A stretch of DNA of 64,000 nucleotides from Fidelibacterota bacterium. Lineage in GTDB: Bacteria; Fidelibacterota; Marinisomatia; SCGC-AAA003-L08; D37C17. Numbering within the stretch: position 1 is the first letter of the stretch; the number at the start of each line of letters is the position of its first letter. Positions 26,550 to 63,686 of the stretch are shown one piece after another. The translations under genes were made by a program, and so were the position numbers. The stretch is from NCBI GenBank assembly GCA_002717625.1, contig PBEF01000002.1:224133-288132 (forward strand), given 5' to 3'. Under the pieces are notes generated by a model, which searched no databases, had not been told where the DNA came from, and saw nothing but the letters and a program-made list of their open reading frames with translations.

Positions 26550-29500
26550 TAGAAATCTAATATTAGATTAACAAGCGTAATGATATCTAGAATATCAACA
26601 ATTCCACTGTTATCTAAATCTGCTATGCATAGCTGGTCTTGATTTAAGTTTTCTTCAAATACAAATGGCACTAAAAGAGTTATATCTAAAACATTATACT
26701 CTTGGTCATTATTTAAATCACCAGAATTGCAATAAAAAGCCTCAAATACGCCATTTCTTTTATAGTTAGACCTAAAGATACTCCAAGAATCATTTAAGCT
26801 GCTTGATTGCTTAAAATCAATTCCATGTAAAGAATTAACAGTTCCAGCTAAAATATCAAGGTCTCCATCTTGATCAACATCTACAATTGTAGGAGCGCTT
26901 GAAAATTCAAATTGATATTCTATTGGGGTATTAGAAAAGTTGCTTAAATCCGAGTTTAAGACAGTTAAATATCCAGCTTCATCCAAAATTACAAGTTCAT
27001 CTGATTGGTTATTATCAATATCCGCTGATAAAACAGAAGAGGAAACACTCCCCCCTGTTTGAATTAAGAAGGTGTTGTTTGGATTGCCATTGATGCTTAT
27101 ACCATGTACCTCACCATTAGAGTTTCCAAAAACAATATACGGATAATCATCTTTATTATAGACTGAAGGAGATGTCGTGATTGAATAATCTGTTTCATAT
27201 GTAAAACGAATAGAGCCATCACTATTTAAAGCATATAATGTTCCATCATCATTTCCTGATAGTATGATAGGGCTTTCTCCATTATCTAGAATAATAGGAG
27301 CTGTTTTAAATTTATCATTACCTGAAAAAGGAAATCCTGAGGCAATACTACCATCATCTAAAATCATATAAAGGTTATCGTTTTCTGTGCCAAATACAAT
27401 ATCATCTAGCCCGTTATCATTAAAGTCAAACAGCGCTACGCCTGCCCTTATTTTCTCTCCTATATCTAAAGGAAAGTTAGAAACATCTGTTCCATCATGA
27501 TTAATAACATATAATTTTTTATTAGAACCAGAAAAACCTCCAACTGCAATCTCTAGTTCAGGGTCTGCATCTATATTACCTATTGCAGGGGTTCCAATAA
27601 GAAAGCTCTCTGCATCATACTCAAATAATAAAGAGTTATACGTAAAGGCATATATCTTTTTACTTTTTGATGTGAATACAATTTCATCAGAGCCATCATT
27701 ATTTATATCAGCAACAGCAGCAGCTCCCCATATCTGACTTCCAGTATCAAATGGAAATATATCAGTTTGTATTTCATTTCCCCATGGATCTAAGCATCTT
27801 ATAACTCCTGTAAAATCAGCAAAATAAACTTCTTTTTCTCCATCATTATTTAAATCTATAACAGTTGGAGCGCCTGAAACTTGACTGCTTGTAAAGAATG
27901 GAAAGCCTTGTTGCAGGAGATTTATATTTATAGAAAAAGTTGTTTGTTCTGTAAATGAAAGTTCTTCTCCGGCTTCAATATAGTCTGCAGTGATATCGAA
28001 TGTTAAAGGAATGTCCCCTAGCATGATTTCATTGGGAATATTAATAATATAAGATTCATAGATAGCCTCATCATATTCTAAAACCTCATTATAAGTATTT
28101 GAGGGTTCATTGATAATGATATTGTTAGAAGAGAGTACTGTTGTTATGTTACTTGCATTAATACCATCTGAAAAGTTTGATAAAGAAAGATTAAGGATAA
28201 TTTCTTCTCCAGGATTAATATTGCCATCTTCATCGCTATCATATAAAAGAGCATCTATTTGAGATACTAATATAAGATTTGTTATTGAAAATTCTATAGT
28301 CTCTAAATCTTCACCTACATATGATATATTGATTCCCCCGCTACTACCATCTGTTAGAAAACAAGATGGATTTGTTGTATCATTAAATTTTGTACGCCCT
28401 GTTCCCTGGCTAAATATAGCTGCTCCAAAAGAGCCACTAGATTCAGTGGTTCCTCCGTATCTATATAGATAAAGTCCATCTGGAGGCCCATTTGCATTTC
28501 CATTGTAATTTGTATTTACTCTATAGATTAATAAACCATTATCATCACCTGGAGTATTAATTTCATATAAGCCTTCTTTAACTCTGTATTCAACAACAAA
28601 AAACTCATTATTTGATAAAGGTGATTTGATTTTATAAATATTATTCTCACTTGAAGAGAGAGGATTTATCTGATAAATTCCTCCGTATTGTATTTCAGGT
28701 AATGATGTAATCCAATCAGTGTATTGATATTTCATATAGGCGCTCATTGATTGAGGTATATCAGAAGAAGCATCCATTACATCCCATCCTCCAACTGCAA
28801 CAGGTGCTACATCATCATAGTAGTGGTATAAATCAGGGGCTCCTAAAGAATGAAAAAATTCATGAGCTAGAGTACCTACTGTAAAATAGCCGCCTTGATC
28901 TAGATTTAAATTATAATCATAGACTTTTGCTCCGTTAATGTATACATCATGTGTATATAAAACCCATCTATGCGGCCATAAAAGATCAGACCAGCCTGTT
29001 GGTGCTCCGCTAACTAAAAAGGTTACATTGTCAATAAGTCCATCATCGTTAGAATCAATATCTAATGTGCTTGGGATATCTGTTGCAACAAATTCCATTG
29101 CATTCTTTAGTAGTAAATGTTCTCTTGTTCTCGCCTGATTATCATTTTGATATCCTATTGGATTAGTTGTTTCATTGTAAGGCTTATAATAATCTCTTGT
29201 ATATTGATCCTGATATGATAGGTTAGTATCCATGCCGCAAGCTGGATAATGATGCGTATTAATAGTTAATAATTCATATGAAACTTCATGGAAGTAATGA
29301 TACAAAGAAGGTCCTTCTGGATCATTGAATGGTTGATCATAATACTCCCTTGTTTCTACAAACTCTTCTTCATCTGCGAATCTAATAAAAACATTTAAAT
29401 TATTAATAGTTCCAATTGAAGGAGCATCCCTAGTTTCAAAGTCACTATAATAATTTTCTCTTATCTCTAGATACTCTTCTTTTGAAATGCCAATATTTTT

Positions 29501-29773
29501 AGACAGTCCTATATTTATTGGAGATACGCTGTCTACTTTAAATTGAGTTGGGATTATTTTATCATCTATTTTTTTTGCATAATAGTAATAACCATCTTTG
29601 GGATGTTGAGTAATAGTATACCCTTTATCATCATGTAATCTTTGATAGAATTCATCTCCAGATATCAGGCAGTTTAATATGCTTCCATCTGGTTGCTCTA
29701 AAGCAACAGGCATATTTTTAAAATTATTTGTTATGCCAATATTTAATAATATGAATAAGAATGTAATAAGCAT
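26549..29773 (-). CDS. Secreted M6-family metalloprotease with FG-GAP/VCBS-like repeats and C-terminal dockerin-like module
   Basis: 'VGTLAHEFFHSLGAPDLYHYYDD...GGWDVMD'; repeated 'DINNDGSDEIVF' / 'DVDQDGDLDILAG'; C-term 'GDLNNDQEYNVLDITLLVPFVF...ADLDNSGIVDILDIITLVNLILDF'. Stop/start overlap TAATG with the downstream deacetylase. Confidence 0.92.
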   Translation of the reverse strand: MLITFLFILLNIGITNNFKNMPVALEQPDGSILNCLISGDEFYQRLHDDKGYTITQHPKDGYYYYAKKIDDKIIPTQFKVDSVSPINIGLSKNIGISKEEYLEIRENYYSDFETRDAPSIGTINNLNVFIRFADEEEFVETREYYDQPFNDPEGPSLYHYFHEVSYELLTINTHHYPACGMDTNLSYQDQYTRDYYKPYNETTNPIGYQNDNQARTREHLLLKNAMEFVATDIPSTLDIDSNDDGLIDNVTFLVSGAPTGWSDLLWPHRWVLYTHDVYINGAKVYDYNLNLDQGGYFTVGTLAHEFFHSLGAPDLYHYYDDVAPVAVGGWDVMDASSDIPQSMSAYMKYQYTDWITSLPEIQYGGIYQINPLSSSENNIYKIKSPLSNNEFFVVEYRVKEGLYEINTPGDDNGLLIYRVNTNYNGNANGPPDGLYLYRYGGTTESSGSFGAAIFSQGTGRTKFNDTTNPSCFLTDGSSGGINISYVGEDLETIEFSITNLILVSQIDALLYDSDEDGNINPGEEIILNLSLSNFSDGINASNITTVLSSNNIIINEPSNTYNEVLEYDEAIYESYIINIPNEIMLGDIPLTFDITADYIEAGEELSFTEQTTFSININLLQQGFPFFTSSQVSGAPTVIDLNNDGEKEVYFADFTGVIRCLDPWGNEIQTDIFPFDTGSQIWGAAAVADINNDGSDEIVFTSKSKKIYAFTYNSLLFEYDAESFLIGTPAIGNIDADPELEIAVGGFSGSNKKLYVINHDGTDVSNFPLDIGEKIRAGVALFDFNDNGLDDIVFGTENDNLYMILDDGSIASGFPFSGNDKFKTAPIILDNGESPIILSGNDDGTLYALNSDGSIRFTYETDYSITTSPSVYNKDDYPYIVFGNSNGEVHGISINGNPNNTFLIQTGGSVSSSVLSADIDNNQSDELVILDEAGYLTVLNSDLSNFSNTPIEYQFEFSSAPTIVDVDQDGDLDILAGTVNSLHGIDFKQSSSLNDSWSIFRSNYKRNGVFEAFYCNSGDLNNDQEYNVLDITLLVPFVFEENLNQDQLCIADLDNSGIVDILDIITLVNLILDF

Positions 29774-29825
29774 ATTGTAATATATTAAGTTTATTAAGTA
29801 AATATACTATAACAGTTTGTAATCG

Positions 29826-61134: not shown

Positions 61135-61413
61135 CTAATACTTTTTTTTAGATTTTAAAATTTGCGTCTTAATGTTATCAAGAGCTCTAAATATTGTTTT
61201 TTCAAAAACAGATGAATGTGATTTAGTGATATATGAATTATTTTTAGAATGAGCGATAATTTCTACTTTTTCAGCTCTAGACTCCTTCGATAAAATAACA
61301 TCAATAGAATGTATCTCATTGTCAAACCTAGCAATTTTACTTATTTTATCTTCAATAAATTTTTTCAACTCATCACTAACTGTAATATTTCTTCCTGTTA
61401 TAGATATTTCCAT
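61135..61413 (-). CDS. hpf: Ribosome hibernation-promoting factor (short HPF/RaiA family)
   Basis: 'MEISITGRNITVSDELKKFIEDKISKIARFDNEIHSIDVILSKES'. Confidence 0.92.
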   Translation of the reverse strand: MEISITGRNITVSDELKKFIEDKISKIARFDNEIHSIDVILSKESRAEKVEIIAHSKNNSYITKSHSSVFEKTIFRALDNIKTQILKSKKKY

Positions 61414-61433: not shown

Positions 61434-62456
61434 TTAATTCTGAAATCTAATACCAACGGGCCTATGATCTGATATATAAAAATCATAGTAAGATTGATTA
61501 TTAGGGAAAAACACCTCATCTATTAATAGTGTTTGAGTGTCATATGAAAAATCAAATAATTCATTTGTAATTAATATATGGTCTAAATGGCTAGGCCATC
61601 CAGGAAATGACCAATATGCAGGTGAACCTGAAGCTATCTCTATATCTGTGAAATAATAATTATTCGGTTCATCTAGGAACGGGTCAAAAACATTGAATTG
61701 ATCTATCAGTAAGTCATTAAAGTCTCCAAGGACAATAACCTTATCATTGCTTAAATATGATGATATATAAGACTCAAGGGCTTCAGATGCCTGCAACCGT
61801 CTATTTTCAGAACCATCACAACATTTGTAATGTATGTTGATAATTATATAATTTGTATTATTATGAGTTATATCTAATACATAAGGTCTCCTCCAGGCAA
61901 ACTGATAATCATATTGTGATAAAATTGTATAAGGAGCTTGATTAATTTGTACTTCATTAAGATTGATCAGATAAGATAATGTTCCATAATTAGAATCATC
62001 ATCTGAGCGATAAAATACCCAATTATTACCTAAGTTTTCCTTGAGACTTTCTAAAGATTGTGTGCTTTCTATCTCTTGCAATGCAATAACATCAACTTCT
62101 AAATCTGGAATAATATCGGTTAGTTCATCTATAGTGTTATTATTTTTTGGGAAATTTTCTATGTTCCATGTTAATAGATCGAATGATTGATTGGAGCCAA
62201 AAGCATTTTCATTTGGCTCTGTATCATATAGCACAATATTAACCGTTGCAATAACATCCACTATATTAATTATTCCATCGCTATTTAAATCAGCTTCATT
62301 TAAATAAGCTGAATCATCTAAAATAATATTTACTAATTCTATAACATCTAGAATATTAACAACACCATCATTATTAATATCTCCAGGAGTTCTTATCTCT
62401 AAACTAGATAAAGCAAAAGAACATAATAAAATTGATATAATAGCTTTATTTTTCAA
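61434..62456 (-). CDS. Secreted endonuclease/exonuclease/phosphatase-fold protein with N-terminal dockerin-like module
   Basis: Signal peptide; dockerin-like residues 24-78 (62223-62387) 'PGDINNDGVVNILDVIELVNIILDDSAYLNEADLNSDGIINIVDVIATVNIVLYD'; EEP motifs 'LLTWNIENF', 'VIALQEIES', 'VLGDFNDLL', 'LDHILI', 'SDHRPVGI'. Confidence 0.92.
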   Translation of the reverse strand: MKNKAIISILLCSFALSSLEIRTPGDINNDGVVNILDVIELVNIILDDSAYLNEADLNSDGIINIVDVIATVNIVLYDTEPNENAFGSNQSFDLLTWNIENFPKNNNTIDELTDIIPDLEVDVIALQEIESTQSLESLKENLGNNWVFYRSDDDSNYGTLSYLINLNEVQINQAPYTILSQYDYQFAWRRPYVLDITHNNTNYIIINIHYKCCDGSENRRLQASEALESYISSYLSNDKVIVLGDFNDLLIDQFNVFDPFLDEPNNYYFTDIEIASGSPAYWSFPGWPSHLDHILITNELFDFSYDTQTLLIDEVFFPNNQSYYDFYISDHRPVGIRFQN

Positions 62457-62458
62457 AA

Positions 62459-63250
62459 TTAATCCTTTATGTATCTAAAATTTAATGGCTCTCCTTTAAT
62501 TGAAGATATTACAATATTATCTATACCTGAGGGTGCTTGATCGCTTTCAAAAGTTAGTAAAATACCACATCCTGATGGGATGACATCTCCTTCAAAAGAA
62601 AATGATAGCACCACATTTTTTCCAAAGGATGTTGTAAACCCTGATTTCTCAGCATCTCCTCCAGATGCTTGGCTAATTAAAGCATCTTGAAGGTTAAACT
62701 GGAAACCTCCAATATCATCTTTAGAATTATAGATAATACTATTTTCCGATATAGAAAGAGTGTTTGAAGGTAATTCACATCCCTTTTCTGAATCCTTAAT
62801 AGCTTTTTCTATACTTAAGGCTTCTTCTAGCTCTTCTGAAATATCAGCTTCTTTATAACTATCAATCTGTTTTTCAACAGTGATTTCAAACAAAGTATCA
62901 ATTCCTGCGGGGAGAGTCTTGCCTTCAAGAGAAAAACCTAATATTAAATTATTTTTTTCATTATACTTTAAGGTAAAGCCATTCTTCTTAGTTTGTCCTC
63001 CTCTAAAGACTATACTATTATCATTATATGTTTGTTTTAAATCTTTAAAATTAAATTGAAAACCAGCTAAATCTTCAGATGAATTATACATAACGCAATA
63101 GTTCCCATTTTTCATAAATTCAAACCATAATGTATTTTCGGTCAAATCCATTTCTTCAGCATATTTATTGACTAAAATAACTTGCTCTAAATCAAGAGCA
63201 AGGATTGGCATTATTAAACATGTATATAATAAAAAAAGTATTTTTTTCAT
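62459..63250 (-). CDS. Secreted protein with two cohesin-like repeats
   Basis: Signal peptide; repeat 1 'MYNSSEDLAGFQFNFKDL...GGQTKKNGFTLKYNEKNNLILGFSLEGKTLPAGIDTLFEI' (about 62870-63100), repeat 2 'IYNSKDDIGGFQFNLQDA..SGGDAEKSGFTTSFGKNVVLSFSFEGDVIPSGCGILLTF' (about 62462-62755). Confidence 0.6.
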   Translation of the reverse strand: MKKILFLLYTCLIMPILALDLEQVILVNKYAEEMDLTENTLWFEFMKNGNYCVMYNSSEDLAGFQFNFKDLKQTYNDNSIVFRGGQTKKNGFTLKYNEKNNLILGFSLEGKTLPAGIDTLFEITVEKQIDSYKEADISEELEEALSIEKAIKDSEKGCELPSNTLSISENSIIYNSKDDIGGFQFNLQDALISQASGGDAEKSGFTTSFGKNVVLSFSFEGDVIPSGCGILLTFESDQAPSGIDNIVISSIKGEPLNFRYIKD

Positions 63251-63323: not shown

Positions 63324-63686
63324 TTAAGTATTTTTAATACAATTTCTACTTCTAGAAATTTTTCGATATATAATATTACCCAAAAGCGAACTAATGATAG
63401 GTATGTATAAAAATAAAATTATAGGCCAGAAAAAAGGTATGTAAAGCATTATGTATCTACAAGCATAAAACTCTATATAAACAGTATTTGATGTAGTTAT
63501 TAAAACTATTGATGTATCTAAAGTTTCTTGTGTGATATTATATTTATTTTTATCAAAATTATATTCAGAATTAGGGAGCCATTCAAAGCAATTAAAAACA
63601 TCAAGCTTTGATAGAGTGTTTTTTATCTTTTTGCAAAACGTGCAATTATTATCATATAAGATTTTATCCAAGGCTGCATATTTCAT
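63324..63686 (-). CDS. DCC-family (DUF393) thiol-disulfide oxidoreductase-like protein
   Basis: 'ILYDNNCTFCKKIKNTLSKLD' (DxxCxxC near N-term) and downstream hydrophobic segment. Confidence 0.65.
   Translation of the reverse strand: MKYAALDKILYDNNCTFCKKIKNTLSKLDVFNCFEWLPNSEYNFDKNKYNITQETLDTSIVLITTSNTVYIEFYACRYIMLYIPFFWPIILFLYIPIISSLLGNIIYRKISRSRNCIKNT

Follow-up and report, generated by a model that had tools for sequence, protein, structure and literature searches.

In the clostridial cellulosome, type I dockerins are carried by exported enzymes and cohesins by non-catalytic proteins. Non-cellulosomal cohesin-dockerin display has been published for Cloacimonadota and for ANME archaea. In Ca. 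Stygibacter (Cloacimonadota), a cellulosome-like complex includes peptidases and other enzymes that are exported and bear dockerins at the C-terminus, together with one 3,755-aa scaffoldin-like protein that has tandem cohesins, carbohydrate-binding domains and a C-terminal sorting domain (PMC8542988). ANME archaea encode many non-cellulolytic dockerin and cohesin proteins, multi-cohesin members included, and their cargo comprises ABC-transporter binding proteins and S-layer proteins (PMC9012536). In Marinimicrobia, our literature search found no paper naming dockerins.

Here we describe a pair of adjacent genes in a 64,000-nucleotide stretch (the window), the end of which is also the end of its contig in a genome of 1.49 Mb and 23 contigs. 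One gene encodes an exported 263-aa protein with two cohesin-like repeats, and the other an exported 340-aa protein of the endonuclease/exonuclease/phosphatase (EEP) family with an N-terminal dockerin. The parts appear to match those of the published non-cellulosomal display systems. The division of type I dockerins and cohesins is that of the clostridial cellulosome, but a glycoside hydrolase was matched in none of the approximately 30 dockerin cargoes tested, the cohesin-like domain is divergent and short, and dockerins far outnumber cohesin-like domains. The combination that defines a cellulosome, a large tandem-cohesin scaffoldin with a carbohydrate-binding module and glycoside hydrolase cargo, was not found among the genome's cohesin-like proteins and the cargo sampled. 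C-terminal dockerins on exported peptidases and other enzymes, and tandem cohesins with a C-terminal sorting domain, are shared with Ca. Stygibacter; in place of its single scaffoldin there are here several small cohesin-like proteins, some of them lipoproteins and one a two-domain protein with no anchor (PMC8542988). The number of non-cellulolytic dockerin and cohesin proteins is reminiscent of ANME archaea, which differ in their cargo and in their archaeal envelope (PMC9012536).

We consider non-cellulosomal cohesin-dockerin surface display, with the 263-aa protein as a putative adaptor, to be the best overall explanation and a reasonably probable one. The first-pass annotation of the window had pictured a compact non-cellulosomal scaffold attaching proteases, beta-helix and propeller proteins and the EEP enzyme to the cell surface. 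The cohesin-like fold (for the second repeat), the dockerin and the non-cellulosomal cargo of that picture hold, and the co-occurrence of the two domains in the phylum agrees with it; a dedicated, conserved gene pair is not supported, and the 263-aa protein is unlikely to provide attachment to the cell by itself.

The gene pair and its conservation

Both open reading frames were found where they had first been placed (Table 1), on the minus strand, as are all seven dockerin genes of the window. The TAA stop of the 263-aa gene occupies positions 62461-62459 and the TTG start of the EEP gene lies at 62456, leaving a gap of 2 nt; a short way 5' of the TTG is AAAGGA, a ribosome-site-like sequence. 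This spacing suggests co-expression of the two genes. The 340-aa protein matched Dockerin_1 at residues 24-68 (31.8 bits, cut-off 22.9) and Exo_endo_phos at residues 95-331 (52.6 bits, cut-off 24.5), and the Ca-binding duplication noticed earlier directly after its signal peptide is a type I dockerin by the Pfam cut-off. The two Ca-loop halves (GDINNDGVVNILD... and ADLNSDGIINIVD...) are identical at 13 of 22 positions, and both loops fit D-x-N-x-D-G-x-x-N-x-x-D. Membership in the EEP family by sequence is indicated by both the profile match and the catalytic motifs. NCBIfam matches of the protein were all below cut-off, and the PDB sequence search with the EEP domain gave no useful match and no solved relative.

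Table 1. Features of the gene pair and its immediate neighbours (positions in the window)
Feature	Positions	Strand	Basis
Exported two-repeat cohesin-like protein, 263 aa	62459..63250	-	ORF, domain profile, AlphaFold models
Cohesin-like repeat 1, ~residues 37-152	62795..63142	-	Profile i-E 5e-24
Helical linker between repeats, residues 138-159	62774..62839	-	DSSP of lower-confidence model region
Cohesin-like repeat 2, ~residues 156-263	62462..62785	-	pLDDT 94.6; top PDB fold matches cohesins
Exported EEP-family protein, 340 aa	61434..62456	-	PF03372 E 6.9e-14
N-terminal type I dockerin of EEP protein	62229..62387	-	PF00404 E 1.7e-7; own dockerin profile
EEP catalytic domain	61437..62174	-	PF03372; TWNIENF, LQEIE, GDFND, LDHI, SDHRP seen in translation
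DCC1-like thiol-disulfide oxidoreductase, upstream of pair	63324..63686	-	PF04134
Ribosome hibernation factor family gene, downstream of pair	61135..61413	-	PF02482

The EEP enzyme with its N-terminal dockerin is kept in two sister species (61-62% identity), and in both of them the gene is also followed by a ribosome-hibernation-factor-like gene. Upstream of the EEP gene there is an LRR lipoprotein gene and no neighbour of the 263-aa type, and a different cohesin-like gene lies two genes downstream. Searches of the 22 other genomes of the family and of the species collection yielded no full-length relative of the 263-aa protein. Since the sister genomes keep the EEP enzyme without a 263-aa neighbour, a dedicated conserved operon, for which conservation in related genomes had been named as a check, is rejected.

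Two further observations concern the gene upstream of the EEP gene. It encodes an LRR lipoprotein in a sister species (L080:5689-6399), whereas in another genus (L083:5040-5819) its product is LRR-like and has a dockerin at the C-terminus, which is possibly a second exchange of lipid anchor and dockerin if the two proteins are assumed to be homologous. In a further genome (G011, L082:2955-4523) its product has a C-terminal dockerin and a stretch that by eye resembles the cohesin-like domain.

The two neighbours need not be partners. In a real cohesin-dockerin system the 263-aa protein may serve other dockerins, while the EEP enzyme docks on lipoprotein or sorting-tail cohesins encoded elsewhere in the genome. 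The retention of the EEP dockerin in sister species with no 263-aa neighbour favours this explanation, and most core positions are common to the dockerins of the genome, so that specificity may be broad; the 2-nt spacing argues for the pairing. We regard this as a serious contender, although not as the probable outcome.

The cohesin-like repeats and their distribution

The 263-aa protein consists of a signal peptide and two cohesin-like domains separated by a 22-residue helix. The profile seeded on repeat 2 recovered repeat 1, which supports repeat 1 as its homologue in one domain family and bears out the first description of two copies of one module; about 90 domain copies were found with this profile in related loci. 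Repeat 1 has the motifs GFQF ... GFTLKY ... LGFSLEGKTLPAG, and the last conserved strand motif is absent. No Pfam or NCBIfam family was matched by the protein; the cut-off of PF00963, which it did not reach, is passed by one other member of the domain family in the genome (30.5 bits, cut-off 24.1).

A cohesin-like jelly-roll fold of repeat 2 is supported by its AlphaFold model. The first five PDB fold matches (Foldseek) are cohesins, some of them solved in complexes with dockerins. The best match, the A. fulgidus cohesin 2xdh (E 6e-4, TM 0.55), is likewise a cohesin module outside any cellulosome; it is 15% identical over the alignment, and the family described here differs in its length of approximately 100 aa and in standing in tandem in a two-domain protein. 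The full-length model has two beta domains and the intervening helix, with repeat 1 at lower confidence and without the last strand. The cohesin-like character first proposed for both repeats is thus seen in the fold of repeat 2 and extends to repeat 1 by homology, the model of repeat 1 being too weak for a fold assignment. At the sequence level, the best PDB match of the family profile was a ruminococcal scaffoldin cohesin (5n5p, E 0.029) aligned over nearly the whole domain, and the third was another scaffoldin cohesin (E 1); the 263-aa sequence itself gave no useful match. Proven cohesins, with domains of approximately 140 aa, are weakly similar to this family in sequence.

Loci with relatives of the domain are almost all from Candidatus Neomarinimicrobiota (SAR406), the exceptions being one Kordia, one FCB-group bacterium, one unplaced bacterium and one record labelled archaeon. 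In Kordia jejudonensis (L148:4129-6594) a single chain combines two cohesin-like domains with a dockerin and a type IX sorting tail. No relative of a cohesin-like family member was found in the viral contigs searched. The 199 genomes searched in the phylum comprise 87 with both the cohesin-like domain and dockerins, 3 with the domain alone, 34 with dockerins alone and 75 with neither (per-genome counts of both in these searches are lower bounds). The association is strong in a Fisher test that treats related genomes as independent (p 7e-24) and also by genus (p 4e-6). Sorting-tail proteins (PF18962), taken as a control for surface proteins, occur in 197 of the 199 genomes, so a general disappearance of surface proteins does not explain the pattern. 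A survey of 41 genomes of the order showed both the domain and dockerins to be frequent in four families and close to missing from a fifth; one genome (G029) has few of either relative to its family and keeps the control. These observations support the conclusion that the domain tracks dockerins across the phylum. As the counts of the two are not significantly correlated within the window's own family (Spearman 0.28, p 0.20), presence and absence alone were used.

The same lack of correlation, like the weak sequence similarity to proven cohesins, is in line with an alternative in which the repeats are stalk or structural domains of cohesin fold, or carbohydrate-binding modules, that bind no dockerin and adjoin dockerin genes by chance. 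CBM2 domains are also among the Foldseek matches of repeat 2. Dockerin genes make up an estimated 6% or so of the genes in this genome, so a lone adjacency is unsurprising, and a co-directional dockerin gene adjoins three of approximately nine cohesin-like genes where about one would be expected (P about 0.03-0.08), just mildly above chance. Cohesins, however, head the fold list with higher TM than CBM2 domains, and dockerins accompany the domain almost wherever it occurs in the phylum, though sorting-tail proteins are near-universal there. We find this explanation unlikely.

Dockerin cargo and an apparent exchange of anchors

Pfam gave 83 dockerin matches in the genome, to which at least one further dockerin must be added; cohesin-like domains number 13. 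The 1085-aa C-terminal dockerin protein at 26552-29806 of the window was missed by the Pfam genome search and is clear with a profile made from the genome's own dockerins; by that profile the original count of seven dockerin proteins in the window, six of them C-terminal and one N-terminal, is exact. The great majority of dockerins in the genome are C-terminal, and three matches are internal and followed by a C-terminal sorting tail. Four are N-terminal (the EEP enzyme, a PNGase F-like protein, a multihaem cytochrome and a Cu-monooxygenase-like protein), and with four of approximately 80 the placement is unusual, not unique. The cargo sampled includes C10, C25 and trypsin-like peptidases, peptidyl-arginine deiminases, arylsulfotransferases, propellers, beta-helices, the PNGase F-like protein and the cytochrome. 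At the start of contig C2 (L154) two dockerin genes are present twice, approximately 3.8 kb apart, which may reflect a recent duplication or an assembly artefact. Elsewhere in the genome (L107:728-2807) an exported protein of 493 aa carries at its C-terminus a degenerate dockerin-like module that Pfam does not match, and 8 nt after its gene comes that of a cohesin-like lipoprotein of approximately 197 aa; this is a second tight pair of cargo and socket, here with an anchor.

Of the 64 dockerin proteins whose N-terminal signal could be read, one has a lipobox. Among the seven complete cohesin-like proteins of the genome, three are lipoproteins, two have a sorting tail (judged by eye) and the 263-aa protein has neither. 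The biggest has three cohesin-like domains; multi-cohesin proteins of relatives are larger, with up to nine domains and in some cases sorting tails. The YTC at residues 9-11 of the 263-aa protein was discarded as a lipobox, as it is too near the start and too many hydrophobic residues follow. Having no lipobox or sorting tail, the protein judged by its sequence is unlikely to attach anything to the cell alone.

In the EEP family the lipobox and the dockerin appear to exclude each other. After two nucleotidase fusions had been set aside, 15 of 28 homologues have a lipobox (in three cases judged by eye, in two of the three across ambiguous bases), 10 a C-terminal and 3 an N-terminal dockerin; none has two of these and none is without one. 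Because relatives have a lipobox or a dockerin, apparently never both, it seems that the lipid anchor has been replaced by the dockerin. The proteins with N-terminal dockerins form one supported clade, and that of the window is by overall similarity closest to the lipoprotein forms (55-58%). This suggests that in this genus the dockerin took the place of the lipobox. The backbone of the tree is weak, and one change is all that its well-supported branches force. A dockerin acting mainly as an export or sorting signal, as its usual place at the extreme C-terminus, where type IX signals also sit, might hint, is very improbable in view of the four N-terminal dockerins, the few mid-protein ones that precede a C-terminal sorting tail and the lipobox place taken in the EEP family.

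In the display system that we favour, dockerin cargo would be exported without an anchor and would stay at the surface through Ca-dependent binding to cohesin-like domains, which are borne by lipoproteins or by large proteins ending in type IX sorting tails. The 340-aa enzyme would belong to a set of over 80 cargo proteins that carry dockerins in the same cell. The 263-aa protein would belong, as a soluble protein with two sockets, to a divergent family of short non-cellulosomal cohesins in Neomarinimicrobiota and, with both sockets and no anchor, could serve as a small adaptor linking two dockerin proteins, its EEP operon partner plausibly among them. The EEP family would use a dockerin in lieu of a lipobox, in this genus at the lipobox's own N-terminal place. 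More broadly, and here we are tentative and inclined to doubt, docking might in this group be a general, evolutionarily interchangeable substitute for lipidation. Covalent lipid anchors and non-covalent dockerins at either end would then replace each other on surface enzymes, and very small adaptors of the 263-aa type, with two cohesins and no anchor, would assemble exchangeable cargo at the surface.

In a phylum with hardly any cultured members, small marine genomes hold dozens of genes for a predicted protein-docking system. The kind is best known from bacteria that degrade cellulose in gut and soil, and Pfam mostly fails to recognise the cohesin-like family involved here. The apparent swap of lipid anchor and dockerin within one enzyme family would offer a direct test of the purpose of non-cellulosomal dockerins.
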